From IMG/VR virus record IMGVR_UViG_3300027631_000106, positions 1-27,618 of that record: DNA of 27,618 nt; one strand, written 5' to 3'. This stretch comes from a virus. Below the pieces are notes generated by a model. That model ran no database searches. It worked only from the letters and a program-made list of their open reading frames with translations, and had not been told where the DNA came from. Below, piece after piece: positions 1-26,006 of the stretch (the stretch's first letter is position 1; each line of letters begins with the position of its first letter). The position numbers and the translations under genes were made by a program.

Positions 1-3000
1 AAACCATATTAAACACTGGTGTGTATTGTGCTGGGGTTAAAGTATTATTGGTTATATTAAGTCTTACTAGTTGATTTGTAAATTGTCCGCTTGGATTATT
101 AGGATTTAATGGATATGGAAAGCAAGTAAGTAATGTTGTATTATCTATTGCTTGTAATCTCAGAAAAAAATTACCAGGTATCCCAGTTAATGTTAATGTT
201 CTACTATATATTAATGTTGCTGGGGTATTATTTGTGGAGTATTCGATGATTGTGCCTGTACTATTTGTAATTGCCCAAAGTTTAGTTGAAGTATGAGTTA
301 TATCTCCAAGAAAATTATCAGGTAATGTTATAATTGGAGTTGAAATATTTGTAAAAACATCATATTGGAAAATTTTTGTTACTAGATTACTAGCTTGACC
401 ATAAAGAAGACATCCTAATAAGCCAGTAGACTGAGGTGAAGCCGAAGGTGTAGGTGTTGGTGTAACAGTTATAGAAGGTGTTACAGATGGTGATGGTTGT
501 GGTGCCGGTACTATACTACTAGAGCAAATAGAGAATAGTGTACCTTGATCACCTCCTGGGGATCTTAAAGTTAATGTTGTATAACTTGATGGAGCTGTTA
601 TTGTTATTATACCAGCCCCTTGATTTATAGGTCCTGGTGGGTTCCATAAACTAGAACCTGTTACTACATTTCCATTTATTGTTTGATAGCACCCCTTACA
701 AAGATCAATACTAGGGATTCCTCCATTTGTAGTCCATGTAAATACTTCACCATTAATAGGATCAAAAGCAGGTCCATTAGTTCCATTATACTGTATTTTA
801 ATATTATTAACAGGTTGGTTAAAAGTTAAATTATATGTATAATCTCCTGTTATATTTCCTAGAAAAGCTGTAAATGGGGGTGCTATTAATGCATTAGTAT
901 TGATACAGCTTACAGCTCCTAAATCTCCTATAGGGTTAGTATCATCAGTTGCTGCGGGGCCTGTATATAAAGGAATTATATTGATACCATTATAATTCAT
1001 AGGGGTTGCCAGTTTTAATGGTAAAGCTACACATTCAGGACAACTTGATGTAGGGAAATTGGTATCAATACAACTTGCTAATTGAGATGAAGCTACTAAT
1101 TGATTTCCAGTAGTTTGTACTAATGTTAAATTATATGGATCAACAGTATCTACTTTATATATGTTGTACCCCATAATGTAAATGTTTCCATTTACTTCTG
1201 CTAAACTACAATCTCCAGTAATAGTTGGGGATAGCTGTTTTCTAAATTCTAATACTCCAGTAGCATAATTGTATTGGTTTATGTATGTAGCAGCACTTAT
1301 TTGGGTAGATTGGGTAAGAACAATAAGTTTATTATTTGTTGTTAATATTAACCCACCTAATGGAAGTTCTAAAACAGGTAATTTAACTTTTATAGTAAAT
1401 GTAGCTACATTTGTTGTGATGTCAAATTCTACTATAGGGATTCCATTAGCATATTGAAATAGTGGATTAGTTTGTATATTTTGTTCTGATACTTGAGTGT
1501 GTAGTGGAAGAAATGATATTTGTTTTATAGTTCCTATTAATGTAGTATTATTAATAGCAAATAGTCCTATTCCTGCATCAATCTCATTACCTAATATTTG
1601 AGGTAGAGCAATATATCTATTAATAGTTGCTGTAAAGGGGTTGCTTATTGTATTATACTCTACTATACTATAAGGACTAAGATTACTTCCATTATTATTA
1701 TATGTATATGACCATAATTTATTAGATGAATTAGCTATTACTCCTCTAGGAGGATTAGTAGAACTAGCTATTTCTAATGGTGGTACAGGTACATTTAATA
1801 GTGTAGATGTATTAGTTGTAAAATTATATGAATAATATTGACTAGTTTGGGTTTTATATAATATATTATCACATCCGTTAGTGTTAGGTCCTATTAATTT
1901 ACCTTGAGAACATGATAATATTGAATTTGCACCACCAGCGTTTATTGTGCTATTTACTAAAGTCCAGTTATATGGTGGATTTGAATTTACTGTATAAATA
2001 CGTCCTGTTGTTCCAAATGAGTCAACATAAAAAGCATAAATTATGTTATTAAACTGACCAATACCAGCTATTCCAGAACCATTAGATAGTCCTGAAGGTG
2101 GAGGATTAAGTATAGTTTCATATTCAAAGGCTCCAGTATTGTAATCGTATTGTTGAAGAGCTATTAACAAATTTGTAGTTCCAGGAGTTGGATTAGATAT
2201 ACCACCTACTAATAAAAGTTTATCAGGATTACCATTTACATCTGATGTTAACATTAGATCTCCTTGACCTTGAAAATTACTATTTAAGCTAAATTTAAAC
2301 GTAGATGTTAATTGTGTTGCCGGAGCTGTTGGAATGTTAAGTTCATAAACTTGGTAAATTGTTTGTCCGTTTATACTAGCCGGAGCAATATCTACAAGTG
2401 TATTATTGTCTTTTGCGGTTAACCCAGGAGAACCAAAACTAGGTACATTTTGAAGTGGTACGGGGTAAGAAAGGGTTCTACTTAATGTTGCTGTATAAGG
2501 AGGGTTTCCAGATAAATTCCATTCTTTAATATATCTAGTAAATTGAGGATTTGAATTTGCAGAAAAAACAGTAAATTGTTTCCATAATCTAGTTCCAGTA
2601 GAAGCAATATCATCACCCACAACATCATCAGGTAATACTATTTCTTGTTGAACATTTGTGTTAGGATCCCAAGTATAATTTTTAGTTTTAAAAGCAACTG
2701 GGTTATTATTGGTTTGAAACTGTTCATTAGTAGTATAAATTAAAGGACACACAGCTGATGGTAAAGAAGGTGACGGTGTTACACTTAACGTACGAGACGG
2801 GCTAACTGTTATACTAGGTGTAGCTGTTATTGATGGTGTTACACTTGGTGTTTTACTAGGTGTTGCACTAGGAGTAACAGTTTTAGTTGGTGTTACACTT
2901 GGTGATTTTGTTACTGTTGGTGTTGGTGATGGTGATGTTGATGGAAGCGGTGTTGTTGTATCTAGACATAAATTAATACTTGAACCGGCATATCCACCTA

Positions 3001-6000
3001 CACCTGTTATTATTACTTGAGTATAAGGATTAGTAGCAGTTACTTGAACTAAAAAATCACCAGAACTACCATAACTTATACTTCCTTGACCATTAATTGG
3101 TCCTGCCCCAACAGTATTTCCTGATATTGAGGCATTGCATGGTAATCCAGAAGCATCTGTTTGTTCACCGCAAAATGAAAGGTTAGGAGTTCCTCCACTA
3201 GTATTAAAAGTAAAATATTCACGTGAATTTATACTAGTATAATCTCCTGAACCGCAAATAAAGAATTTAATACTATTAACAGGTTGACTGAAGTTTAAGA
3301 TATAAGTATATGGCCCAGCATTTCCACCAAGTCGAAGGCTAGACTCCAAATATTGTATTCCAGTACATACAGTATTACTAATAACAGTAACAGGAAAGTT
3401 TACAATTATTAAAGGAGGTCCACTATATGTTGTACTAACAGTTAAATTTCCAACAGTTATAGTACCATTACCCGTATTAGGTAATATTTGATTTTGTACT
3501 AATGATACATCACAAGAAGTACAAGCTACTGGTGGCGCTGGTAGGATTGAAGTACAATCAATACCAAATATTGACCCGTCAAACCCTCCAGGTCCTGTTA
3601 TAGTTAAAGTAATAAATGGACTAGGAGCAGAAATAGTAAATAAACCCCCCCCACCAGTACCGGATGTTGGATTATTAGCTATAATAGTGTTTCCTGATAT
3701 TGTGCTAAGACAATTATTGGAACTTGCTATTGTTGGGGTTCCTCCACTTGTATTAAATGTAAAGGTTTCAGCAGTTGCGTATCCGGTAAGACTACCCAAT
3801 GCAGTAATAGGTAATCTAATATTATTAACAGGTTGACTAAATGTTAATGTATATGAAAAAGATGAATCTGCTCCTAAATATACTGTATTGGCAGGAGTTG
3901 TTGTATTACATGATGCCCAAGCATTAGGGTATTGACTGATGCTTCCTGTTCCACTAGCTGTTATAGTAACTCCATTTATAGTAGTACTACCACTAGGTAT
4001 TGGTAAAGTTCCTTGACAAGGAGTAGTATTAGATGTTGGAGAGGGTGTTGGCGTTGGTGTTCTTGTAGGAAACGGTGTTGTACTTGGTGTTGGTGTTTTA
4101 GTTAGTGTTACTGTCTTAGTAGGTGTTGGTGTTGGTGACGGTGAAGCCCCTATTATGTTTGGTTGAAATGAAACATTACAACAACTTGGTATCTGTGATG
4201 ATCCGGCTGCTCCAGGATTTGTAATATTTCCTTGGGTTGTATTATATGGAAATACATTATTTATTTGAATAAGAGAATAAAATGCACTAAAAATATAAAT
4301 AATATTATTTATTATAGCTAAACCCCAAGGAAAAGGAGCAGCAACCGTTATATCTTTTTCAAATTCTAAATCCCAACCTCCTGTTGCATTTGGAATATAT
4401 TGAGATATCCAAAAATAAAAAGGTGAGGTTGTTGTTTGCGTTGTTACAATAATTTTTCCATCGGTTGTATATACTATATCTCCCGACACAATTCTTTCTG
4501 AAGGTAAAGAAAATAAATTTGATATTGTTGTTGTATTATCCGGATTTAATGTAATTTGAACAATTTGTGTTACAGAAAATAGTGGAGAAAATACAGAAGA
4601 TATTAATGTTGTATCATTAACAGCACATAAACCCGCTCCTAGGGATATCCCTACTGGTAGAAGTATTTTTCTATTATATGCTGATGTAAATGGGGTTAAA
4701 GTAATATTGTATTCAAAAATACCTGTGTTATCATAAAGCCATAATTTATTAGTAGTATGGGCTATATCATCTGCCCTTCCTATAGTAGGAGAGGTTCCAA
4801 GATTTAATAAAGTAGAAATATTAGTGGTACTGTTATAACTATAAACTTTATTACCATTGCCATTATTCAAATAAATTACAGAACACTCAGGCACTACTAG
4901 GGAACCCGGTGATACACTAGGTGTAGGTGTAGGTGTTTTAGTTGGCGTTACACTAACAGTTGGTGTTTTTGTTATACTAATAGTTGGAGTAACAGTACGT
5001 GTTGGTGTTACACTAGGTGTAGTACTTGGCGTTGTTGAAACACTAATAGTTGGTGTTTTAGTTGGTGTAATACTAGGAGTAACAGATGGTGTTGCCGATG
5101 GTGAAATTGATGGAAATATAGGAAATGTTGAAGTACTTACGGTTGCAGTAGGTGTTATTGACACGGTTGCTGTAGGTGTTGTACTAGGTGTTGGTGCAGG
5201 ACCAAACACTACATCCATACATAAATCTGCAGGTTCAGGTAAAGAACCACTAACAGAAGTAGCTGATGGGGTTGGTGTTGGGGTAGGTGAAATATCAGGA
5301 GTAACACATTCTTCTTCTATACATGCACTTCCTGTATAAAATGTTACAGCAGGATTTCCTGCAGATGGATTGCTACCACATACTTGAATTGTTTGTTGTG
5401 GAGCTATTGTAAACTGAGCTCCAACAAATCCATTACAAGTTGTATAAAAACTTTGGTATGAACTAAATTCACTAGTATTAATATAAGTAATACATTTACA
5501 TTCAGGAGATCCAGGTGATGTAGTTGGGCTAGGTGTAATGCTAATTGTTGCTGTTGGTGTTGCACTAGGTGTCTTACTAATTAAAGGATAAGTAGTAGAT
5601 GACGGAGTAACTGTTATAGTTGGAGTTACTGTTTGAGTAGGAAATGGTGTTTGTGTTACAGTTGGTGTTACACTAGGTGATGGTGAGATACATGTACCAC
5701 AATCTTCACATGTTTTATATACAGTTTCATCTATTATTGCTATAGTAGGGTTACCGTCAGTAACTGTTAATACAGTATAACAATTACCTAATGAGTCTTG
5801 AAATATATCTCCAGGGACTACATTATTATTAACAACTATTTGAGTAATTGCTTTATCACAACAGCTTTCAACTAACCAAACTGTAGTAGGTTCTTTAGGA
5901 TCACATGGTGGTAAATCGATTAAACAATCATCACAAGTTTTATAAAGAGGTACAAGATCTGGGAGGAATATATTTGGCGTAGCGTTAGTTGGAGCTATTA

Positions 6001-6124
6001 CTTGATAGCAATTACTTAAAGAATCTTGAAAAATTATACCTGCATATAAAATAGGGGTATATTTAATAACTTTAGTAATAGAAGGATTGCAGCAACTTTG
6101 GACTAGCCAGTTATATAGAGCCAT
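1..6124 (-). CDS. Giant mosaic Thr/Ser/Pro-linker adhesin / tail-fibre-type protein (C-terminus beyond left edge)
   Basis: Reading leftward from the ATG at 6122-6124, I translated every line to the window edge and met no stop: at least 2,041 codons. The N-terminus has two tandem Cys-rich repeats (residues about 6-67 and 83-142; W-LV-SCC, FQDS-NCY, YKTC-DC). A third Cys-rich module follows at about 204-272. Next come linkers built from T-P-S/T steps (about 146-203, 309-407, 660-702, 1057-1120, 1876-1900). These separate beta-rich modules: three copies of a QPVN(N/S)I module and four segments with a (N/S/T)(K/R)LW motif, which look like beta-propeller blades. No signal peptide or membrane helix is visible. 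It follows fibre and baseplate-type genes, and 52 nt lie between its start and a promoter-like motif. A virion adhesin or tail-fibre role is inferred from architecture and position; I cannot name a characterised homologue. The total length is unknown. Confidence 0.9.
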   Translation of the reverse strand, partial: MALYNWLVQSCCNPSITKVIKYTPILYAGIIFQDSLSNCYQVIAPTNATPNIFLPDLVPLYKTCDDCLIDLPPCDPKEPTTVWLVESCCDKAITQIVVNNNVVPGDIFQDSLGNCYTVLTVTDGNPTIAIIDETVYKTCEDCGTCISPSPSVTPTVTQTPFPTQTVTPTITVTPSSTTYPLISKTPSATPTATISITPSPTTSPGSPECKCITYINTSEFSSYQSFYTTCNGFVGAQFTIAPQQTIQVCGSNPSAGNPAVTFYTGSACIEEECVTPDISPTPTPTPSATSVSGSLPEPADLCMDVVFGPAPTPSTTPTATVSITPTATVSTSTFPIFPSISPSATPSVTPSITPTKTPTISVSTTPSTTPSVTPTRTVTPTISITKTPTVSVTPTKTPTPTPSVSPGSLVVPECSVIYLNNGNGNKVYSYNSTTNISTLLNLGTSPTIGRADDIAHTTNKLWLYDNTGIFEYNITLTPFTSAYNRKILLPVGISLGAGLCAVNDTTLISSVFSPLFSVTQIVQITLNPDNTTTISNLFSLPSERIVSGDIVYTTDGKIIVTTQTTTSPFYFWISQYIPNATGGWDLEFEKDITVAAPFPWGLAIINNIIYIFSAFYSLIQINNVFPYNTTQGNITNPGAAGSSQIPSCCNVSFQPNIIGASPSPTPTPTKTVTLTKTPTPSTTPFPTRTPTPTPSPTSNTTPCQGTLPIPSGSTTINGVTITASGTGSISQYPNAWASCNTTTPANTVYLGADSSFSYTLTFSQPVNNIRLPITALGSLTGYATAETFTFNTSGGTPTIASSNNCLSTISGNTIIANNPTSGTGGGGLFTISAPSPFITLTITGPGGFDGSIFGIDCTSILPAPPVACTSCDVSLVQNQILPNTGNGTITVGNLTVSTTYSGPPLIIVNFPVTVISNTVCTGIQYLESSLRLGGNAGPYTYILNFSQPVNSIKFFICGSGDYTSINSREYFTFNTSGGTPNLSFCGEQTDASGLPCNASISGNTVGAGPINGQGSISYGSSGDFLVQVTATNPYTQVIITGVGGYAGSSINLCLDTTTPLPSTSPSPTPTVTKSPSVTPTKTVTPSATPSKTPSVTPSITATPSITVSPSRTLSVTPSPSLPSAVCPLIYTTNEQFQTNNNPVAFKTKNYTWDPNTNVQQEIVLPDDVVGDDIASTGTRLWKQFTVFSANSNPQFTRYIKEWNLSGNPPYTATLSRTLSYPVPLQNVPSFGSPGLTAKDNNTLVDIAPASINGQTIYQVYELNIPTAPATQLTSTFKFSLNSNFQGQGDLMLTSDVNGNPDKLLLVGGISNPTPGTTNLLIALQQYDYNTGAFEYETILNPPPSGLSNGSGIAGIGQFNNIIYAFYVDSFGTTGRIYTVNSNPPYNWTLVNSTINAGGANSILSCSQGKLIGPNTNGCDNILYKTQTSQYYSYNFTTNTSTLLNVPVPPLEIASSTNPPRGVIANSSNKLWSYTYNNNGSNLSPYSIVEYNTISNPFTATINRYIALPQILGNEIDAGIGLFAINNTTLIGTIKQISFLPLHTQVSEQNIQTNPLFQYANGIPIVEFDITTNVATFTIKVKLPVLELPLGGLILTTNNKLIVLTQSTQISAATYINQYNYATGVLEFRKQLSPTITGDCSLAEVNGNIYIMGYNIYKVDTVDPYNLTLVQTTGNQLVASSQLASCIDTNFPTSSCPECVALPLKLATPMNYNGINIIPLYTGPAATDDTNPIGDLGAVSCINTNALIAPPFTAFLGNITGDYTYNLTFNQPVNNIKIQYNGTNGPAFDPINGEVFTWTTNGGIPSIDLCKGCYQTINGNVVTGSSLWNPPGPINQGAGIITITAPSSYTTLTLRSPGGDQGTLFSICSSSIVPAPQPSPSVTPSITVTPTPTPSASPQSTGLLGCLLYGQASNLVTKIFQYDVFTNISTPIITLPDNFLGDITHTSTKLWAITNSTGTIIEYSTNNTPATLIYSRTLTLTGIPGNFFLRLQAIDNTTLLTCFPYPLNPNNPSGQFTNQLVRLNITNNTLTPAQYTPVFNMV
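425..500 (-). repeat. Thr/Ser/Pro linker
   Basis: About 25 codons of SPSVTPSITVTPTPTP-type sequence between the third QPVN module and the last propeller-like segment, which runs off the left edge. Confidence 0.65.
525..1045 (-). repeat. QPVN-type beta module, copy 3
   Basis: Contains TFNQPVNNIKI (795-826), EVFTWTTNGGIP, INGN and a closing LTLRSPGG. It is more diverged than copies 1 and 2 but keeps the same order of landmarks. Confidence 0.65.
2765..2955 (-). repeat. Thr/Ser/Pro linker
   Basis: About 63 codons of SPSPTPTV, SVTPTK and TPSIT units between the second QPVN module and the next propeller-like segment. At DNA level it is close to the linker at 4905-5210. Confidence 0.7.
2980..3530 (-). 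repeat. QPVN-type beta module, copy 2
   Basis: Contains NFSQPVNSIKF (3266-3295), EYFTFNTSGGTP, ISGN and a closing VIITGVGG. It starts with a C-x-x-C pair (ACTSCD) near 3520, as copy 3 starts with CPEC. Confidence 0.7.
3556..4020 (-). repeat. QPVN-type beta module, copy 1
   Basis: Landmarks in order are a YTLTFSQPVNNIR segment (3815-3850), ETFTFNTSGGTP, ISGN, a Gly-rich stretch and a closing ITLTITGPGG. The same order recurs at 2980-3530 and 525-1045, so these are repeated domains of about 150-180 residues. Confidence 0.7.
4025..4145 (-). repeat. Thr/Ser/Pro linker
   Basis: About 40 codons of TPTPTK / TPFPTR units between the first propeller-like segment and the first QPVN module. Confidence 0.7.
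4905..5210 (-). repeat. Thr/Ser/Pro linker (longest)
   Basis: About 100 codons of TPS/TPT units with interspersed K, R, V and I (SVTPTK, TISVST types). It lies between the N-terminal Cys-rich part and the first propeller-like segment. Confidence 0.75.
5515..5690 (-). repeat. Thr/Ser/Pro linker 1 (tandem degenerate repeat)
   Basis: Codes for repeated units of the VTPT, ITVTPS and TPSAT type. The DNA is a degenerate tandem repeat of about 12-18 bases, seen on the + strand as ggtgtt / ggtgta units. Confidence 0.75.
5699..5878 (-). repeat. Cys-rich N-terminal repeat, copy 2 of the giant protein
   Basis: Residues 83-142. It carries the same W-L-V-x-S-C-C / F-Q-D-S-L-x-N-C-Y / Y-K-T-C-x-D-C landmarks as copy 1. 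It ends in CGTC just before the first Thr/Pro linker. Confidence 0.8.
5924..6109 (-). repeat. Cys-rich N-terminal repeat, copy 1 of the giant protein
   Basis: Residues 6-67. The pattern is W-L-V-x-S-C-C, then F-Q-D-S-L-x-N-C-Y, then Y-K-T-C-x-D-C. It matches the next copy in order and spacing, so it is an internal domain duplication. Confidence 0.8.
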
Positions 6125-6364: not shown

Positions 6365-6394
6365 AACTTGTAATTTTAATTAATTTATAATTTT

Positions 6395-7141
6395 TTATGA
6401 CCAAATAAAAATCTCATTTGTATCTGTAGATACATATGTATTCCCATATCCATAAGTACTACCACCATAAGATGGAGTCGCTGGGAGGTCATTTAGTAAT
6501 CCATATTGTGTTGTATTGATATACCCATCAGTAGCACCAAATGAGGTTGATAGGAAATTTAAACTTGATTGCAATACCCATCTATTTTCTGGTGTTCCAT
6601 AACCAAAAGCATGGCCTGACCCGTCTATATTGTTTTGTATAATAATACCCCCATCAACATCCGATGATGATCCTGATGCTAAAAGAGCAAATTGCCCTAA
6701 ATTTACAGCAGTTGATGGAATATTTGTTAATCCACTACCATCTCCAGCAAATGAACCAGTAAATGATCCTGTAGTATAGGAACTAGTAAAGGCGTCAAAA
6801 GAAGATGTGGTTACAAGAGAACCTGTATCAAATGATTGAGAAGGTAGATTTGTTAATCCACTACCATCTCCAGCAAAGGCACCTGAAAATGAACCAGTAG
6901 TATACGAGCTAGTAAAGGCGTCAAAAGAGGAAGTAGTAACAAATGAACCCGTATTAATAAGAGAACCTGTCGATACGGGTCCTGGTGGTCCTTGAGGTCC
7001 AGGAGTAACAATTTCAACAACATTAGTGACTTGTTGAGGTATAACCAGTATATTGCTAATATCATTATTAACATCTACTGTGTTAAATGTACTCTCTACA
7101 CTAACACTATTAATTGTATTATTGATTTGGATTTGACTCAT
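6395..7141 (-). CDS. Collagen-like phage tail-fibre protein
   Basis: 248 residues. The N-terminus (about 1-46) is rich in N, I and V and probably attaches to the virion. A short collagen-type G-x-y run follows at 48-55 (GPQGPPGP), then two copies of a 42-residue Ser/Thr/Gly repeat (66-107 and from 108) with SSFDAFTSSYTTGSF and AGDGSGLTN. The C-terminal part (about 150-248) is Gly/Tyr/Asn-rich, contains GSGHAFGYGTPENRW and may form the fibre tip. The ATG shares its A with the stop of the preceding gene (TAATG), which suggests translational coupling. Collagen-like segments and GDGSGLTN repeats are usual in aquatic phage tail fibres. The receptor is unknown. Confidence 0.8.
   Translation of the reverse strand: MSQIQINNTINSVSVESTFNTVDVNNDISNILVIPQQVTNVVEIVTPGPQGPPGPVSTGSLINTGSFVTTSSFDAFTSSYTTGSFSGAFAGDGSGLTNLPSQSFDTGSLVTTSSFDAFTSSYTTGSFTGSFAGDGSGLTNIPSTAVNLGQFALLASGSSSDVDGGIIIQNNIDGSGHAFGYGTPENRWVLQSSLNFLSTSFGATDGYINTTQYGLLNDLPATPSYGGSTYGYGNTYVSTDTNEIFIWS
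6716..6820 (-). repeat. 126-nt fibre repeat, copy 2 (partial)
   Basis: Codes for residues 108-142 and matches the first 35 residues of copy 1 apart from a few substitutions (F to L, SGA to TGS, L to I). Confidence 0.8.
6821..6946 (-). repeat. 126-nt fibre repeat, copy 1
   Basis: Codes for residues 66-107 of the collagen-like fibre. The next copy is nearly identical at DNA level, including the segment that encodes AGDGSGLTN. Confidence 0.8.
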
Positions 7142-7560: not shown

Positions 7561-8247
7561 TTAGTCTCTGAATTCTTGGTATACTTGAAGTATGGGAGAT
7601 ACTATTTCATGTCTGTGGTTAGCTTTTAAAGCAAATACTTTAAATCCTTTTACATGTTCCTCAACTCTAGTTAAAAATGAAAACCCTGTGTCTTTTTTAG
7701 TTTTTAAGTCTATTTGAGCTAAATCTCCACATATTACCATTTTAGATCCCTTACCTAGTCTTCCTAAGACAGTTTCCATTTGATCGTGTGTAACGTTTTG
7801 TGCTTCATCTACTATAACAAATGATTTAACAAATGTTCTACCACGCATAAAGGCAAATGGTACTATTTCAATGTTGCCGTTTTCTAATTCTTTATCAACT
7901 TTTTCTTTACCGTATAACATATAAAGATTATGATAAATTGGAGCCAACCATGGATCCATTTTTTCCTTTAAATCGCCGGGTAAAAATCCTAATTCTTCTT
8001 TAGCTACTGTAGGTCTTGTTATTACAATTTTATCTACTTCGCGCTTAAATAGCATATCTAACGCGGCTTGAACGGCAACAAGTGTTTTTCCGCTACCGGC
8101 CATTCCTTTTAATACTACTACGGGATTCTCTACGATTAAAGCTTTCGCTTCTTTTTGTTCTTCATTAAGTTGAAGGTTGAACTTAATTGGGTTTTTTGGT
8201 TTTCTCTTTGGAGTGAAAACTTCATCGGTGTGATGGTTTGAAGCCAT
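7561..8247 (-). CDS. phoH: PhoH-like P-loop ATPase
   Basis: 228 residues, one P-loop NTPase domain. Walker A is GMAGSGKT (48-55), Walker B is VIVDEAQN (144-151), followed by GDLAQID (174-180) and a C-terminal ANHRHEIV. These are the usual landmarks of PhoH/RNA-helicase-related ATPases. After a basic N-terminus, LNEEQKEAKALI at 27-38 matches the Q-motif-like start of the domain. There is no PIN domain, so this is the short phage form. Phage PhoH is common in aquatic phages; its function is not settled, and RNA metabolism or phosphate stress have been proposed. It forms its own unit: a terminator (8278-8307) and an ATATTTATA motif lie directly upstream. Confidence 0.92.
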   Translation of the reverse strand: MASNHHTDEVFTPKRKPKNPIKFNLQLNEEQKEAKALIVENPVVVLKGMAGSGKTLVAVQAALDMLFKREVDKIVITRPTVAKEELGFLPGDLKEKMDPWLAPIYHNLYMLYGKEKVDKELENGNIEIVPFAFMRGRTFVKSFVIVDEAQNVTHDQMETVLGRLGKGSKMVICGDLAQIDLKTKKDTGFSFLTRVEEHVKGFKVFALKANHRHEIVSPILQVYQEFRD

Positions 8248-8331: not shown

Positions 8332-9999
8332 TTAGCTAATACCTAAGGCATTTAAACCATTAACAAATACTTTACCGTAGAATTCAGGACGTACCATTTT
8401 CTTAGCGTAACGAGTCATGATACCTTTTCTTGGTGTGAAAGTTTCAGGATCGTAAACTAATGGAGTCATTAATAACGGAACGTATGGAGCATAAACAGCA
8501 CCTGATTCTAAGAATTGAGCACCTTTATAACCCATAAGGATTACGTTATCACTGAAATAAGGGTTTACATATACTTTGTAACGAGAGTTTAGAGAACCAA
8601 TTTTTTGGCTACCAAAGTTGAATACTTTATCCAATTCAGCACCTGCATCAGAAGCATATCCTGGGATAGACTGCATGATAGTAGCTACTGCTGGAGAAAT
8701 TACTAAGAAGTTAGCTTGACCTCTAAGAGTTTTTTGCAAGATTTTGTTAGATACTGATTGTAATACTGTACCTAAAGTTGCGAACCAACCACCTTGTGTG
8801 TTGTAGAAACCACCAGTTGTAGTTGAAGTTTGAACGAATGTTGAACCATTCCAAACTTTATTGTTTTCTGCTGACCAGAATCCTGTAGTAGCTGCTTCTT
8901 CAGTCAACATACCTAAGATTTCTAAGTCAATCTCCATAGCGATGTATTGAGATAACAATCCAGTTAATTCCGCTTCAGCATCGATGTTTTGGTAAGCATT
9001 CAAATCTTGAGCTAACTCAGGAGTCCATTGTGCTTTTAATTTTCTTGTTTTCGCAACGATAGCATCTGATTTCATTTGGATGTTAACGGTTGGGATAACG
9101 ATTTGATCTTGGCTTAATGAGTTAGGAATAGCGATTCCAGTATTGTCAGCTTCAAAATCACCTCTTAATGCAGGAGTAGTTTCTTTTTCGTAGTAAACTG
9201 CGATAGAACCAGATGAGTTAGCACCTGTTAATGCAGCAGTTGTAACGAATTGTAAAGCTGTAGCTCCAGATCCACTTGTATAGTTAGTGAATTGTTGTAA
9301 TACGTTGATTCCACTAACTAAAGAGCTACTTGGAATAAATGCTTGTGCAGCTAAGAAATCAGCTAATGTAAGTGTAGAAGCTTGAGCATCAGAAATGTTG
9401 ATTACATATAATGAACCTGTAGAAGACTCATAACGAGAATCCCAGTTAACTTGGCTTAATGAGTTTACTAAAGATGCAGAATAAGTTACAGATTGTGTGA
9501 ACTGGTTCATTGAGTAACCATATCTACCTTGTCCGTAAAGACCACCTGTTGGGTTAACGTTAGTAATGTCAAAGTTAGTTGCTTGAACATCAGCTAATGA
9601 ACCGTAAAGTGATTTATTTTGTTGGAACGGAGTTTTGTTATTTCCATATTGGAAATCTAGATAAAATACAAGACCAGAAGGCATAGCCATTGGTTGTACA
9701 GATACGAATTCTTTAGCTACGATTTCAGCGAATACTCTACGTACTAAAGGCAATGCAATACCAGCCCAGTTTTCACCAGTACCACCTAACATTGAGTTTG
9801 TACCAGAAGTAACGTTAGTTTCAACTACTAACTGTTTTGCCTGGTTTTCAAGGATAACAGCCATGTTGTTTTTCTCAACTTGGTTACTGATTCCTTCAAG
9901 AAGTCCACTTTTTTGCCATTTAGTAGCAACTCTTGCTGCTTCTGCTTGTTGGCTTTTCCATGGATTTGCTCCTTCTAAGAGCATGTTTAAATTGTCCAT
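8332..9999 (-). CDS. gp23: Major capsid protein, T4 gp23-like
   Basis: 555 residues (T4 gp23: 521). Residues 314-360 (IVAKTRKLKAQWTPELAQDL, then IDAEAELTGLLS and AMEIDLE) align residue by residue with the conserved T4 stretch containing KSRQLKAAYSIELAQDL. The C-terminal part (YKVYVNPY, GYKGAQFLESG, YAPYVPL, MTRY) also matches. The T4 protein loses its N-terminus after Glu65 in an LTE site. Here LLE (Glu9, Glu35), ILE (Glu51) and VVE (Glu60) are candidates, the last two at about the right distance. The region at about 180-290 is Ser/Thr-rich and unlike T4, perhaps an outer insertion. The gene lies 10 nt after the scaffold gene, has an A-rich leader without Shine-Dalgarno, and is followed by a strong terminator. 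Confidence 0.95.
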   Translation of the reverse strand: MDNLNMLLEGANPWKSQQAEAARVATKWQKSGLLEGISNQVEKNNMAVILENQAKQLVVETNVTSGTNSMLGGTGENWAGIALPLVRRVFAEIVAKEFVSVQPMAMPSGLVFYLDFQYGNNKTPFQQNKSLYGSLADVQATNFDITNVNPTGGLYGQGRYGYSMNQFTQSVTYSASLVNSLSQVNWDSRYESSTGSLYVINISDAQASTLTLADFLAAQAFIPSSSLVSGINVLQQFTNYTSGSGATALQFVTTAALTGANSSGSIAVYYEKETTPALRGDFEADNTGIAIPNSLSQDQIVIPTVNIQMKSDAIVAKTRKLKAQWTPELAQDLNAYQNIDAEAELTGLLSQYIAMEIDLEILGMLTEEAATTGFWSAENNKVWNGSTFVQTSTTTGGFYNTQGGWFATLGTVLQSVSNKILQKTLRGQANFLVISPAVATIMQSIPGYASDAGAELDKVFNFGSQKIGSLNSRYKVYVNPYFSDNVILMGYKGAQFLESGAVYAPYVPLLMTPLVYDPETFTPRKGIMTRYAKKMVRPEFYGKVFVNGLNALGIS

Positions 10000-10009
10000 T
10001 TTTTTAATT

Positions 10010-11158
10010 TTAATTTGTTTGGTTTATGTTTGCTAATTTTTGCATTCTAGTTATCCATTCGTTGTTTTCAACGATTAGTTTTCTAGGAGCCATACCTGCA
10101 GCTTTAGAAGCGAATCCTAATGATTCTTTCAATTGAGTTTTACCTTTAGTAGGAGCAACGAATGCTTCTGAAAGTGACTCATATACTAATTTAGCTTCTT
10201 TAGCAGATTCTGCTTTGTCAAATGCTTTCACAACTTTTAATTTTTGTGACTCGTTTAAGTTTTTAGCGTTAAAGATTTTGTTAACGTAAAGTAACTTAGC
10301 GTTTAATAGATTAACTTCATTAAGTTCGGTACGAAGAGTTTCAACAGCTTCTAAAGCTAATGTTAATTCTTCTTTCAATTTCTTTTTGTAGTCTTCAACT
10401 CCTTCTTCTTCAGCAGTGTCTTTTTTATCACCACGTTTAGCTGCAGGAACATCTCCTTTATTACCACCGTATTTTTTACGTTCGTCTAATTCACCTGCTT
10501 TTTTACCTTTTTCGTATTCATATTTGTCTACTTTAGATCTTTCAGCACGGCTTTCTCTTTTTTCACCTAATAACTCAGCTAAGATGTCATCTAAGTCTTC
10601 TTCTAAATTTATGTCTTCCTCGTCTGCAGCTATTTCTGCATCTCCGGCCATATCCATAGCGTCAACTTCAGCTTCGTCTTCGTAGCCTTCTCCGTCACCA
10701 GCACCTTCAGTTTCCTGAGAGATGATGTCTTTAATTAAACTTTCTAACTCATCCATAGATAAGTCTTTAACTTCTTTTTCCTCTTCTTCGTCTTCTTTAG
10801 CATCATCTTCAATGTCTTCAGCATCTTCTTCAGCGTCGATCATTTCTTCTTCGTCTTCGTCTTTTGCTTCGTTTAATTCATTTTCTAATTCTGCAAGAAT
10901 TTCGTCAAGGTCGATTTCGTCTATAGAGTTGTCTTGGTCATGTCCCTCCATAGGGATATCATTCATCATGTTTTCGTCGAATTCTTCATCCATTTGACCT
11001 TCAGCTTCATATTCTTCTCTTAATCGAGCAGAGAACATTGACTGTAGACGTGGAGCGAAGGCTTCTTCAAGAGCAAGTTTTGCTTGTGTAAGAGCTGTTT
11101 CACGAACGGCTTTAGCATCAGCAATAGCTTCCTTTAAAAGGGCTTTTGTGTCTTTCAT
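10010..11158 (-). CDS. gp22: Prohead core/scaffold protein, gp22-like
   Basis: 382 residues, very acidic. The N-terminal helix (KLALEEAFAPRLQSMFSARL at about 27-46) has the EAFxPRLQSM signature seen in prohead core proteins of T4-like aquatic phages. Residues about 55-200 are long Glu/Asp runs. A charged Lys-rich stretch (about 200-260) precedes a C-terminal helical domain (TLRTELNEVNLLNAKLLYVN, then KVVKAFDKAESAKEAKLVYESL). The position just before the capsid gene, the acidity and the helical content match the T4 scaffold, which assembles inside the prohead and is degraded by gp21. Many (L/I)xE sites are present. An AGG lies five bases before the ATG, one of the few Shine-Dalgarno-like sites here. 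A 103-nt leader precedes it. Confidence 0.82.
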   Translation of the reverse strand: MKDTKALLKEAIADAKAVRETALTQAKLALEEAFAPRLQSMFSARLREEYEAEGQMDEEFDENMMNDIPMEGHDQDNSIDEIDLDEILAELENELNEAKDEDEEEMIDAEEDAEDIEDDAKEDEEEEKEVKDLSMDELESLIKDIISQETEGAGDGEGYEDEAEVDAMDMAGDAEIAADEEDINLEEDLDDILAELLGEKRESRAERSKVDKYEYEKGKKAGELDERKKYGGNKGDVPAAKRGDKKDTAEEEGVEDYKKKLKEELTLALEAVETLRTELNEVNLLNAKLLYVNKIFNAKNLNESQKLKVVKAFDKAESAKEAKLVYESLSEAFVAPTKGKTQLKESLGFASKAAGMAPRKLIVENNEWITRMQKLANINQTN

Positions 11159-20912: not shown

Positions 20913-22232
20913 TTATTGATATTTCAAAATATCTTCAGCAACATAAATCCCTTGTGCACCACTTACTGTTATACCTCTAGCGGAAAGCGCATCACCAACG
21001 AAATGTACGTTAGGATACTTGGTCAGGGCTAGATTGGTATAATCAACAAGTGGCTCAGGTGATAGATATTTTACTTCAGGTATATACATACCCCAATCGT
21101 CTTTTAATGTTGGAAATATTTCTTTCATCCCACTGATGAAATCATCAATATATTCAAAATATCCTTCAAATGCTTCTCTTACTTCACCCATTACATAATC
21201 ATTTATTTGAGTAGCCTCTACAAATCCACCTTCGGATGTAAATGAAGGTACTCTAGATGGAGAGTAGTATAATCCTTTATTATCAACTTGTAGCATTTTA
21301 ACTAAATTTCTACTCCATGTGAATGGATCTTCAATACCATTCACTTCCATTATAATACCAAAATTAGTCATATCATTTCTATACTTTTCATCTTTTTTAG
21401 CATGACCATTATATGAGTAGTTTCCATATGTTTCTTCTACTGCAACATATGCTGCATTATTATTAGTACAGAATGAACGTAATGATACTCCTTTATCATC
21501 AAATTTTCTATATAACTTAAAGTCATATGATACATCGATTAATTTTTGAAAGTGATATTGTGGTGCTTCAAAACGAACACCAATTTGTACCGATTTAGGT
21601 TCAGTTGGTAAATCATATTGTTCTGCTAGTGATTTACCAAAGTCAATACCTGATTTACCTACAGCAAATATAAGTTGATCATATTTAATTATTCCATGAT
21701 CCCATGTAATTTCGTTTACTGGATCTGCTTTTAATGTTTGGTTAGCAAATGCAATTTCAGTTACTTTGGTTTCCCAAATAAATTCAACTCCATTATCAAC
21801 TAAATATGAATACCAATTTTTAGCAATTTCAGATAAATAATCTGTTCCAACGTGCCATACAGGAAATAATCTTAAGCCAAATTGTGGTTTAATAAAATCA
21901 GGTTCAGCCACAGGATTTGAACATTGTACTTCTTCTGGTTTAGGATGGAAACGTTTAAAGTTAGTTATAACTTGGTCCATTAATTCCATTGCTTTATCTT
22001 CACCACAGTATTTAGATAATTGACCTCCAATAGCTGTATGATATGTTAATTTACCATCAGACCAACCACCAGCACCTAACATTCCTGTCATTACTTCACT
22101 TGGTAATCGTTTATGAGGATCTTTCCCCATATCGATAATGGTAATTTTACCTTTATAGTTGTTATCTATTAATTTGGTTGCTGCATTGATACCTGCTACA
22201 CCGGCACCTACAATTACAATATTTTTACTCAT
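20913..22232 (-). CDS. NAD(P)/FAD-dependent oxidoreductase (COG2509-like)
   Basis: 439 residues from the ATG at 22230-22232. An in-frame ATG at 22295 exists, but it would place the terminator hairpin inside the gene and delay the Rossmann start. From 22232 the protein begins MSKNIVIVGAGVAGINAATK, with GAGVAG (9-14) binding the FAD ADP moiety. QIGVRFEAPQ, SLRSFCTNNNAAYVAVEE and the C-terminal FVGDALSARGITVSGAQGIY (flavin-binding GD motif) fit the uncharacterised FAD-dependent dehydrogenase family COG2509. The substrate is unknown. Such an enzyme is unexpected among head genes and looks like an accessory metabolic gene. A double hairpin lies upstream, and an 87-residue gene follows 20 nt downstream. 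Confidence 0.85.
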   Translation of the reverse strand: MSKNIVIVGAGVAGINAATKLIDNNYKGKITIIDMGKDPHKRLPSEVMTGMLGAGGWSDGKLTYHTAIGGQLSKYCGEDKAMELMDQVITNFKRFHPKPEEVQCSNPVAEPDFIKPQFGLRLFPVWHVGTDYLSEIAKNWYSYLVDNGVEFIWETKVTEIAFANQTLKADPVNEITWDHGIIKYDQLIFAVGKSGIDFGKSLAEQYDLPTEPKSVQIGVRFEAPQYHFQKLIDVSYDFKLYRKFDDKGVSLRSFCTNNNAAYVAVEETYGNYSYNGHAKKDEKYRNDMTNFGIIMEVNGIEDPFTWSRNLVKMLQVDNKGLYYSPSRVPSFTSEGGFVEATQINDYVMGEVREAFEGYFEYIDDFISGMKEIFPTLKDDWGMYIPEVKYLSPEPLVDYTNLALTKYPNVHFVGDALSARGITVSGAQGIYVAEDILKYQ

Positions 22233-22261
22233 GTTTATAATTTTTGAACTGTTAAATATAC

Positions 22262-22301
22262 GAAAAAGAGATGCGGTCTCAAAAACTGAGGCCACATCTC
22301 T
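22262..22301 (-). terminator. Rho-independent terminator upstream of the FAD oxidoreductase
   Basis: On the minus strand AGAGATGTGG-C-CTCA pairs with TGAG-A-CCGCATCTCT (one internal mismatch, one G-U pair) around a GTTTT loop, followed by TTTTT. It ends the transcript of the 385-residue gene. A TATATTTAAC sequence, a weak variant of the ATATTTATA motif, follows at once. Confidence 0.85.
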
Positions 22302-22357: not shown

Positions 22358-23515
22358 TTAGGTAAATTTATCCAATGCTTTAGCAGCATCTATTAATTCT
22401 TTTTTAGCTTGATTAATTTCAAATTCGCTTCTATTGCTTTTTTTTATTTTTATATATCTGTTTAATTTTTGCTCATATTCTCTATGTAGAGCTGTTAACT
22501 CCTCGTTAGATATATTGAATTCTTCTTTGTTTTCATCTAATTGGGATTCGGATACTGCTGTTGGTATAACGTATTCGTTTTTACCAATTTTAAGGTTTTT
22601 AATAGTATTAGCGTTAACCATTCTATATCCCTTAGCACCCATATCATACACTGTAATGTAATTAAATTCAGCTGGGTCGTATGCTAATGTTCCTCCTTTT
22701 AGGTATTTTTTAACACCTAAACGAGCATTCATTACACGTTCGCTACCATCTTTTTTAATAAATTTTACTGTAAAAAATTTACCTTTAGTATCGAATATTA
22801 ATTCCTTAGCTGTTTCTTTATCTATTTCACCTGAAGGTTCTGATGGTGTTTCAGCTGGTACTTCTGGAATTTGAGCTAGTGGGTCATCTGAGGGGATACC
22901 GTCTGCTTCTGGTTGTTCGTTTAGTAGTCTTGAGTTTCTAGTCATTTTGTTTTCAACTAGAAAACGTTTTAAATCAAAGTCTTGCATTTTATTTTCATTT
23001 AATGTTGGTTCATCTTTTACACGGGCATGCCAATAATAGTTTTTCTTAATATAATTCACACCTTGCTTCATTGGTCCATCTTTAGGAGTGCCAGGAATAT
23101 GTATTCTATCAAATTCTAACCTCCAATCATCTTTATTAGTACCAGTTACTTCTAAATCTTTTTGTGTAGGAGTGTGGTCTAATACAGCTACAGTAGGTGC
23201 ATATTTACTTCCACCTATAAACACTATACCTTCATATTCTGATGCATCATTAGCGGAATAGTGGCGAGAATAGCCACCATCATAATGTCCAGTTACATCT
23301 TCTTCTATATCTCCGATGTGTTTTTTAACAAAATCTAAAAGACTAGGTTCATCGTATGTATAGGGTTCCGAAGGTGTATTTAATTTAGGTTTTGGTTTAT
23401 CCAAGGTTGTTGTTGGTTCTCCAAATTGAGGAGTATCACTAACTGTCATTTCTGAAAGTGAATTGCGAGTTAATTTATTTTCAATAAGAAAACGTTTTAA
23501 ATCAAAATTGTCCAT
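22358..23515 (-). CDS. Tagged virion-module protein, apparent fusion of two tagged proteins
   Basis: 385 residues. The N-terminus MDNFDLKRFLIENKLTRNSL is repeated internally at 177-196 as MQDFDLKRFLVENKMTRNSR. The DNA under the two copies shares a 20-base identical stretch. Residues 24-172 hold an unknown domain (HYSANDASEYEGIVFIGGSK, then LEVTGTNKDDWRLEFDRIHI). Residues 200-385 hold a Pro/Glu linker, a beta-rich domain (KGKFFTVKFIKKDGSERVMN) and a helical C-terminus (EELTALHREYEQKLNRYIKI). FLIE and FLVE fit the prohead protease consensus. Met177 could be a second start. No enzyme motif. An internal-head role is inferred. An AATATTTATT motif with a 13-nt spacer precedes it. Confidence 0.78.
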   Translation of the reverse strand: MDNFDLKRFLIENKLTRNSLSEMTVSDTPQFGEPTTTLDKPKPKLNTPSEPYTYDEPSLLDFVKKHIGDIEEDVTGHYDGGYSRHYSANDASEYEGIVFIGGSKYAPTVAVLDHTPTQKDLEVTGTNKDDWRLEFDRIHIPGTPKDGPMKQGVNYIKKNYYWHARVKDEPTLNENKMQDFDLKRFLVENKMTRNSRLLNEQPEADGIPSDDPLAQIPEVPAETPSEPSGEIDKETAKELIFDTKGKFFTVKFIKKDGSERVMNARLGVKKYLKGGTLAYDPAEFNYITVYDMGAKGYRMVNANTIKNLKIGKNEYVIPTAVSESQLDENKEEFNISNEELTALHREYEQKLNRYIKIKKSNRSEFEINQAKKELIDAAKALDKFT

Positions 23516-24372: not shown

Positions 24373-24858
24373 TTAACTTAATTCTTCTGGAGATAATGGA
24401 GGTGGAGCAGCTGCTTCTCCTTTAGCTGGTGTTAGATCTTGTTGAGCTAATTCTTCTGGTGATAGATTAGCGTGTACAGGACCAAATTGAAGTAACTCCG
24501 ATATGGCTTTAGTTGCTCTCTCACGTTCTTGAAGAGTAAGCATATCATATTTCATACCCGATACCTTAGCAATAAAATCTTCGGTATTCCATATTAAATT
24601 AAAATATTGTTTATTAGGTAATAGAATTTTAAATGTAGTTGGTTTTGGAGCAACCCATTCAATATCACTAACAAACAATCTATATTGCATTGATAATAAT
24701 TTCTCCAATGTTTGTCTTAACTCAGGGAAACGAGCCAACATTATATTCATAGGGGAGCTAGGATCACCTTGGTAGGCTTCAGTATCAGTTTTTTTCAAAC
24801 GTTGACGTACACGCCCGCGAATAAAATCTTCTAGTTCTTTTTTTGTTTTAAATTCCAT
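24373..24858 (-). CDS. 161-residue hypothetical protein, virion-module type
   Basis: 161 residues. The N-terminus is a basic amphipathic helix (KTKKELEDFIRGRVRQRLKK) like those in the genes at 19207 and 27036. The central part (about 50-105) is a compact alpha/beta-looking segment (LFVSDIEWVAPKPTTFKILL, then PNKQYFNLIWNTEDF). The C-terminus has a short duplicated LSPEEL motif separated by an Ala/Pro linker (residues about 137-161). It overlaps the preceding gene by one base (TAATG). No family recognised; a head or neck role is only implied by the neighbours. Confidence 0.7.
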   Translation of the reverse strand: MEFKTKKELEDFIRGRVRQRLKKTDTEAYQGDPSSPMNIMLARFPELRQTLEKLLSMQYRLFVSDIEWVAPKPTTFKILLPNKQYFNLIWNTEDFIAKVSGMKYDMLTLQERERATKAISELLQFGPVHANLSPEELAQQDLTPAKGEAAAPPPLSPEELS

Positions 24859-26006
24859 TATTTACCCATTTGTTTTAATATATTTTCCATTTGATAGAAT
24901 CGACTAGCACCACCCATATCTGAGGCGTCTTTAGTGGTTGTTTCTAATTTATGTTGAATATCAATTAAAATATTAAGTACAGTTTGTAATCCTTCTTCAA
25001 CATCTTGATCTTGATCTCTACCAAAGTCAATCATTGTTTCGATTTTCTTTAATGTACCACCTATAAGAGCAATATCGTGACTTAATTCTTCGCCTTGTAC
25101 TTCATTCATCATTGAATCAATAGCTGTTACTTTTTCTTCACCATCTAAATATCCATAAGCGCTTTGTAAATAATCGTATGCTTTAATTATTTTAGCTTGC
25201 CACCAATGTGGAAAATCAACTTCTTGACCATTGTCATATTTGTCTAGTTGCTTATATAACATAGCTGCCATTTTAGCAGTTCTATAAACATCGCTTTTAA
25301 GCATATGTGGTTCATTATCTTGATGTCCTACGTCTATATCTTCTTTCATTGCTTTTTGTTTTTTCATTATACCTGCTGCTAGTCTATACAATTCAGGATC
25401 GTCTTCTTTATATTTTCCTGTTTTCTTTAATGCTTTAACAATTCTTTCTTCTTTACCTTTTATATCACGTTCATCAATAACACCTCTTCCTTTAAGTATA
25501 TCGGCTCTAGTTACTTTACCATCGCCTGTTAAGTCAGGAAATTTCTTTTCATCTAATTCATCATCAAAGTCAAATTCTTCTTCATCAGGTATTTCATCTG
25601 AGTCAGGGTCGATTTCCCAAGCTGATGGGTCTATTGTGATGTCTTCTAAGTCATCAATTTGTTCAACACTGTAATTTCCTTCACCTGAGTATTCAAGATA
25701 AGCACTAAATTTAAACCAAGCTCCAGGTATTTTATCTGTAGACATATAAACATCTCCTGATGCTGATGGTTCTCCTGGTTCTCTGTCTATTACTTCAACA
25801 TCAGATGGTCCATCTAGAACATAATCATGTCCATTATAAGTAACAATTACGTCGTTAGCAGCATTATAACCCCATGTTATTTTATCAGAATCAAAAGATT
25901 TCATATCCTTTATAGTAAGACTAGGAGCATTACCATTTTCTAATAATACAGAATTACGAGTTAACTTATGTTCAGTTAAGAAGTTATGTAAATTAAAATC
26001 ACTCAT
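24858..26006 (-). CDS. Tagged virion-module protein with EF-hand-like loop
   Basis: 382 residues. The N-terminal tag [20 protein letters not shown] matches the start of the gene at 22358; FLTE fits the prohead protease site. The N-terminal region (about 25-130) is beta-rich, followed by an acidic stretch ([20 protein letters not shown]). Residues 158-169 ([12 protein letters not shown]) have ligands at positions 1, 3, 5, 9 and 12 of an EF-hand/dockerin-type calcium loop. The rest is helical ([20 protein letters not shown], then [17 protein letters not shown]). From memory, DLTGDGKVT-type loops recur in aquatic phage structural proteins. Function unknown. An ATATTTATA motif with a 13-nt spacer precedes the ATG. 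Confidence 0.76.

Follow-up and report, generated by a model that had tools for sequence, protein, structure and literature searches.

A giant gene of propeller and beta-sandwich modules among the structural genes of a Far-T4-like phage encodes a candidate virion adhesin

Background

Modular phage adhesins are already known as a kind, and the beta-propellers found in many proteins serve many functions. Fibritin, which forms the neck whiskers of T4, and Hoc are accessory surface proteins of the head and neck. Another relevant group is that of the Fib_succ_major domain (PF09603), a member of the C-type lectin group that is a variable target of diversity-generating retroelements (DGRs) in Bacteroides phages (PMC8143477; PMC4159848). 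Far-T4 phages are reported to be common in fresh and sea water, T4 host-interaction genes have not been detected in them, and their phoH gene lies beside the structural genes (PMC4360716).

Here we analysed a viral DNA stretch of 27,618 nucleotides (the window; IMG/VR record IMGVR_UViG_3300027631_000106), one end of which is filled by a giant gene. Like phage receptor-binding, tail-fibre and other modular adhesion proteins, its product is a large multi-domain protein of a structural cassette that has beta domains of binding type, diverges rapidly and exchanges domains between close relatives. It differs from these proteins in that its gene lies between head and neck genes, that neither a tip of fibre type nor a chaperone or attachment domain was detected, and that searches of Pfam and of the isolate-phage collection recovered no propeller or QPVN module. 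The protein would hold a position comparable to that of fibritin and Hoc, but it is far larger and matches no Pfam family, and we do not claim membership of either group.

Results

A genuine single gene

The frame is on the minus strand and remains unclosed at the end of the contig; the virus record has no sequence further left.

2..6124, minus: giant modular gene, ATG at 6124, 2041 codons, stop-free up to the window edge

A search of viral contigs yielded complete homologues that end in a stop codon. That of a syntenic sister phage (IMGVR_UViG_3300046000_008568; L039:8001-15017) has 2338 aa, that of L028 1801 aa and that of L005 1334 aa, and one of 1410 aa occurs with the same sequence in three contigs (L004/L006/L007). 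In addition, G015 (L088) carries a homologue as a 1398-residue stop-to-stop frame (about 1,390 aa). Because intact homologues with stop codons occur in several independent contigs, a frameshift or an assembly error is ruled out and, judged by these relatives, the frame is a genuine single gene that is unbroken in nature. An earlier sequence-only reading, which had described an uninterrupted minus-strand frame of at least 2,041 codons, open at the edge, is therefore confirmed. Alignment of the window edge to the complete relatives indicated that 150-167 residues are missing from the C terminus, for a total of about 2,200 aa (2,190-2,210); the C-terminal end of the homologues reads TIYKYLDI(L/Q). 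A propeller-bearing frame longer than the window gene, of 2949 codons, was seen in another gp23-bearing contig of 85.5 kb (L083:667-9513).

No Pfam family matched the 2041 visible residues; Fib_succ_major, which is present in orthologues, was thus not among the matches. The sole PHROGs match was phrog_15511, of unknown function, which spans a linker region and the start of propeller A, and neither Pfam nor PHROGs returned a tail-fibre family. No signal peptide was recognised by eye, and there was no strong membrane segment. In the cultured-phage collection, tblastn revealed no match to the whole protein, propeller C or QPVN1, and the propeller profile had no match in Flavobacterium phage immuto, the nearest isolate, or in Mel-JY01. 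A scan of genome_contigs for a bacterial source of QPVN gave 32 pattern matches, with no relative among them.

Module anatomy

The visible protein comprises two CC Cys-rich modules, one further Cys-rich module, four propellers, of which the edge truncates the last, and three QPVN modules, with five Thr/Ser/Pro linkers (residues numbered with Met as 1):

5897..6124, minus: CC Cys-rich module 1, residues 1-76 (alignment A3: 42% identity with copy 2; 93% with the sister phage)
5678..5896, minus: CC Cys-rich module 2, residues 77-149 (alignment to copy 1, HMM)
5501..5677, minus: Thr/Ser/Pro linker 1
5303..5500, minus: second type of Cys-rich module, residues 209-274, single copy (own HMM; 92% to the sister, 26-34% to L004/L005)
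4889..5302, minus: Thr/Ser/Pro linker 2, about 138 aa
4166..4888, minus: beta-propeller A, residues 413-653 (AlphaFold2 and Foldseek)
4016..4165, minus: Thr/Ser/Pro linker 3
3533..4015, minus: QPVN beta-sandwich 1, residues 704-864 (AlphaFold2 model of 3521-4018)
2942..3517, minus: QPVN beta-sandwich 2, residues 870-1061 (HMM and alignment)
2750..2941, minus: Thr/Ser/Pro linker 4, including a 54-bp tandem repeat of 2.1 copies at 2805-2919
1901..2749, minus: beta-propeller B, residues 1126-1408 (HMM and alignment)
1055..1876, minus: beta-propeller C, residues 1417-1690 (HMM; by tree apparently exchanged, grouping with L004/L005/G015)
500..1042, minus: QPVN beta-sandwich 3, residues 1695-1875 (HMM; by tree apparently exchanged jointly with propeller C)
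413..499, minus: Thr/Ser/Pro linker 5
2..412, minus: beta-propeller D, residues 1905-2041, truncated at the window edge after its first half (HMM)

The alternation of linkers with Cys-rich, QPVN-type and propeller-like modules, as first read from the letters, thus holds along the protein. The further statement that each module is present in several copies holds for the CC, propeller and QPVN modules but fails for the second Cys-rich type. The homologues draw on a common module alphabet in different orders, to which Fib_succ_major is added (E 1e-36 and 2e-35).

Predicted folds

AlphaFold2 was run on home-made alignments (A4, 23 rows; A5, 28 rows). Propeller A was modelled with a mean pLDDT of 89.4, a pTM of 0.89 and about 20 strands, and QPVN1 as an all-beta domain with a mean pLDDT of 92.0 and a pTM of 0.88. 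These confident models rule out disorder in place of folds for both modules, so that the structure prediction proposed with the sequence-only reading came out in favour of folded modules for the two types modelled. The Thr/Ser/Pro linkers are presumably disordered.

In Foldseek searches of the PDB, propeller A matched Kelch (Keap1, designed SAKe6) and LRP6 propellers (E about 1e-6, probability 1.0, TM 0.5-0.57); 82 PDB entries matched at E <0.001, and the top ones listed were overwhelmingly propellers. By its model, module A is a member of the beta-propeller superfamily, to which modules B-D were assigned by homology. The strand count, rather than the coordinates, suggests five blades with the last strand closing the ring. 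Thus, propeller A shares the fold of the Kelch and LRP6 propellers but has only about 10% identity to them, no Kelch motif by Pfam and a suggested five blades instead of six; the propeller profile gave weak Kelch-type matches only (E 0.1) against PDB sequences.

For QPVN1, no PDB structure matched at E <0.01, and the QPVN profile had no match among PDB sequences. The weak fold list was led by CBM32/6/35/61 at E >=0.012 and TMq <0.5, values that do not assign QPVN1 to the carbohydrate-binding modules. In a virus structure library, the QPVN fold was recovered in the predicted structures of two uncharacterised proteins of Virus NIOZ-UU157 (A0A7S9STY0 and A0A7S9SU38; TMq 0.72; E 1.9e-8 and 1.2e-5).

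Gene neighbourhood and protease partner

Pfam identified gp17, gp20, gp21, gp23 and PhoH in the window. Those nearest to the giant gene, with two further neighbours, are as follows:

6395..7141, minus: collagen-motif fibre-like gene (248 aa), upstream of the giant gene, 54% to the sister
7561-8247: PhoH (Pfam E 4.8e-66)
8332..9999, minus: major capsid protein gp23 (PF07068, E 2.5e-79), the anchor for phylogeny and synteny
10010-11158: gp22-like protein of 382 aa, so named only for its position and acidic composition

In the sister phage, the giant gene lies between gp23/PhoH and the neck and tail genes gp13-gp14-gp15-gp18-gp19. The order downstream is a trypsin-like protease, a 569-aa linker protein, a 1350-aa YadA-head-repeat protein, gp13 (the PHROG head-tail adaptor), gp14-like (named by position and shape only), gp15-like, gp18 (sheath) and gp19 (tube). 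In L004, L005 and L088, the homologue sits directly between gp13/110-aa and gp14.

A homologue of the protease occurs within about 2 kb of the giant-gene homologue in 12 distinct lineages (L004, L005, L012, L017, L023, L028, L032, L033, L035, L064, L080 and L088), and it is retained in distant phages despite otherwise different neighbourhoods. Among loci in which propeller and QPVN modules occur together, it is missing only in L018, whose contig ends where L017 carries the protease; more distant loci bearing propeller or QPVN modules have no adjoining protease. The His/Asp/Ser triad pattern is kept (NNHVV / VDGAL / GGDSGSA). The protease profile found chance-level IpaD matches only among PDB sequences and NAL1_N alone in Pfam (E 0.01).

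The C-terminal TIYKYLDI of the giant protein adjoins the protease start and is near-invariant in nucleotides also. This nucleotide-level conservation confounds its reading as an anchor, which we do not accept as proven; a regulatory or translational-coupling signal is equally possible. One of the 13 matches to the motif, in L063, was rejected as an unrelated integrase-like ORF.

Several other features of these regions were observed. The window gene at 6395-7141 appears to combine the start of a 227-aa gene (L039:5547-6230) with the end of a 424-aa gene (L039:6283-7557) of the sister; window 6380-6660 is 76% identical in nucleotides to L039 7292-7568. Such a gene would fit an internal deletion that fused two fibre-like genes. 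The sister's 1350-aa protein (L050:4220-8272) consists mostly of SHAEG-type YadA-head repeats (PF05658, E 2.7e-28) and resembles a trimeric-adhesin-like fibre. The sister's gp15-like protein (L050:10638-12416) ends in a Thr/Ser/Pro linker and a lectin-like Laminin_G_3 domain; that of L007 (17093-18997) has a similar tail, and that of L005 (8380-9255) ends with neither. In the window, the proteins at 22358-23515 and 24858-26006 have a common type of N-terminal peptide, MxxFxLxxFLxExKLTRNS, repeated internally in the former, which by eye resembles a head-targeting leader as in T4 internal proteins. The structural region also holds an oxidoreductase-like gene, FAD/NAD-dependent (20913-22295; 460 aa; Pyr_redox_2, E 8e-10; 90% identical in the sister). 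A GIY-YIG-like endonuclease ORF of the L004 lineage (L053:5182-6493) opens with MSSNHHTDEVF, the residues with which PhoH begins, and PhoH itself starts afresh downstream of it; this arrangement looks like a homing-endonuclease insertion into the beginning of phoH.

Lineage and host

By gp23, Flavobacterium phage immuto is the nearest isolate (56%), followed by Microcystis phage Mel-JY01 (49%) and Rhodothermus phage RM378 (36%). In the gp23 tree, in which RM378 is a long branch and from which the Lake Pavin Far-T4 contigs were left out, the window, immuto, Mel-JY01 and RM378 group together (97/99), and T4, Aeromonas and cyanophage sequences fall elsewhere. By this tree, the window phage is on the Far-T4/RM378 side and not with T4. 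Both marks of that group were found: gp23 groups with RM378, and phoH adjoins the structural genes. Window genes mostly start without a Shine-Dalgarno-like motif, and the GC content is 33%. A Bacteroidota host would be compatible with both features, and a link between Far-T4 viruses and Bacteroidetes has been reported (PMC7198788).

Divergence and module exchange

Between the window and the sister, gp17, gp20 and PhoH are 100% identical as proteins and gp23 is 95% identical. Within the giant protein, the N-terminal Cys modules retain 86-93% identity, and all of the propeller and QPVN modules only 46-67%; the collagen-like gene (54%) and a 385-aa gene (32%) have also diverged. The dN/dS values of the propeller and QPVN modules against the sister were 0.44-0.61; a ratio below 1 shows constraint and is not proof of positive selection.

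In the gp23 tree, the window, the sister and L028 form one group (99/98), to which L004 and G015 do not belong. In the module trees, by contrast, the window's propeller C clusters with L004/L005/G015 (97/94), and so does its QPVN3 (100/99). In addition, Fib_succ_major lies after QPVN3 in the sister and before the first propeller in L004/L005, with 80-83% identity; its position likewise differs between L012 and L004/L005, and the visible window copy is without it. The conflict of the module trees with the gp23 tree and the shifting position of Fib_succ_major directly indicate module exchange, and the C-terminal half of the giant protein seems to have been swapped with another lineage. Propeller copies at the same position (A, C, D) cluster across phages in their tree, and copies within one protein are far apart; therefore, the propeller duplications predate the split of these phages.

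With the DGR targets of Bacteroides phages and Bacteroidota, the orthologues share a full PF09603 domain that scores above the curated cut-off. However, searches for a reverse transcriptase (PF00078) found no match in eight relative contigs, which may be incomplete, while positive controls worked; the diversity of the modules therefore does not look DGR-driven.

Discussion

A virion-borne adhesin as the preferred reading

The position in a structural cassette, the folded binding-type beta modules, the presence of Fib_succ_major in orthologues, and the strong divergence together with module exchange all argue for an adhesin. We put at roughly 60% the probability that the giant protein is a virion-borne, flexible, modular host-surface adhesin tuned by module exchange, a reading in which we infer the virion location, the orientation, the ligand class and the role in adsorption. 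The protein would be made late, together with the head and neck proteins, and carried on the neck/collar or on the head surface. The chain would extend outward, its folded modules spaced by extended Thr/Ser/Pro linkers, and several weakly binding modules would engage glycans or proteins of the host surface before or alongside the tail fibres. The binding range might then be retuned as recombination replaces, adds or loses modules and linkers. Against this reading, the QPVN matches to carbohydrate-binding modules all fell below significance (E >=0.01, TM <0.5), and searchable sources held no virion proteomics or structure for any family member.

The sequence-only reading had also proposed a host-recognition or surface-attachment protein. 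This proposal gains from the single gene in a head/neck cassette, the folded repeats, the lectin-type domain in orthologues and the fast divergence, and it stands as a candidate role. Its remark that no such protein is described in T4 is correct in that no T4 counterpart was found, but is less striking given that the phage groups with Far-T4/RM378.

Alternative roles

The same structural evidence would also suit a virion surface protein that binds environmental surfaces, such as extracellular polysaccharide, particles or a mucus-like matrix, and so raises the encounter rate with no part in setting host range. Many different binding modules in one chain would fit such a role, and specific recognition would be left to the tail fibres, a YadA-head-repeat fibre-like gene lying nearby in the sister; the Ig-like adhesins of gut phages, which bind non-host surfaces, offer an analogue (PMC13370021). 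However, that portal and terminase are identical between sisters while the giant protein has strongly diverged makes the giant gene a likely determinant of host interaction, and this contrast, with the module exchange, fits host-specific tuning better, leaving the environmental role unlikely.

The protease raises a further alternative, in which the giant protein is a polyprotein or pro-adhesin whose Thr/Ser/Pro linkers are cut by its neighbour, either freeing adhesin or decoy units or trimming the protein during virion maturation. The recurrence of a triad-pattern protease close by in so many lineages, distant phages included, would be expected in this case. However, no cleavage motif was identified, maturation in T4 is done by gp21, which is present in the window, and the protease and the mosaic protein may merely share the host surface as their target; we regard such processing as improbable.

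A non-virion protein, acting late in the cell or released on lysis, for example as a decoy sequestering surface material or rival phages, would agree with the lack of a recognised anchor other than the short C-terminal peptide, but seems very improbable given that the gene lies between head and neck genes wherever the structural context of relatives is readable and that other structural proteins of the same phages bear Thr/Ser/Pro linkers (gp15-like with Laminin_G_3).

Novelty and meaning

Returning to the virion-borne adhesin, we consider the giant protein to be a new family, although modular phage adhesins as a kind are known. In open-access papers, we found nothing close to it among giant linker-rich phage genes, and no description of four propellers and a beta-sandwich family with no match in Pfam or the PDB within one giant, protease-paired gene of Far-T4-like and jumbo phages. 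On a bolder and less likely reading, the adhesin and a dedicated trypsin-like protease, encoded between the head and neck genes, could form a distinct surface apparatus that swaps its modules and is shared by Far-T4-like phages and other large phages related to them. Such an apparatus would do the work of host recognition where Far-T4 phages have no recognisable T4 genes for it, the protease cutting either the adhesin or the host surface.

The family supplies expressible modules, namely the propeller and the new beta-sandwich, both confidently folded in prediction, and a conserved protease partner. With these in hand, host recognition in Far-T4 phages becomes a testable question.
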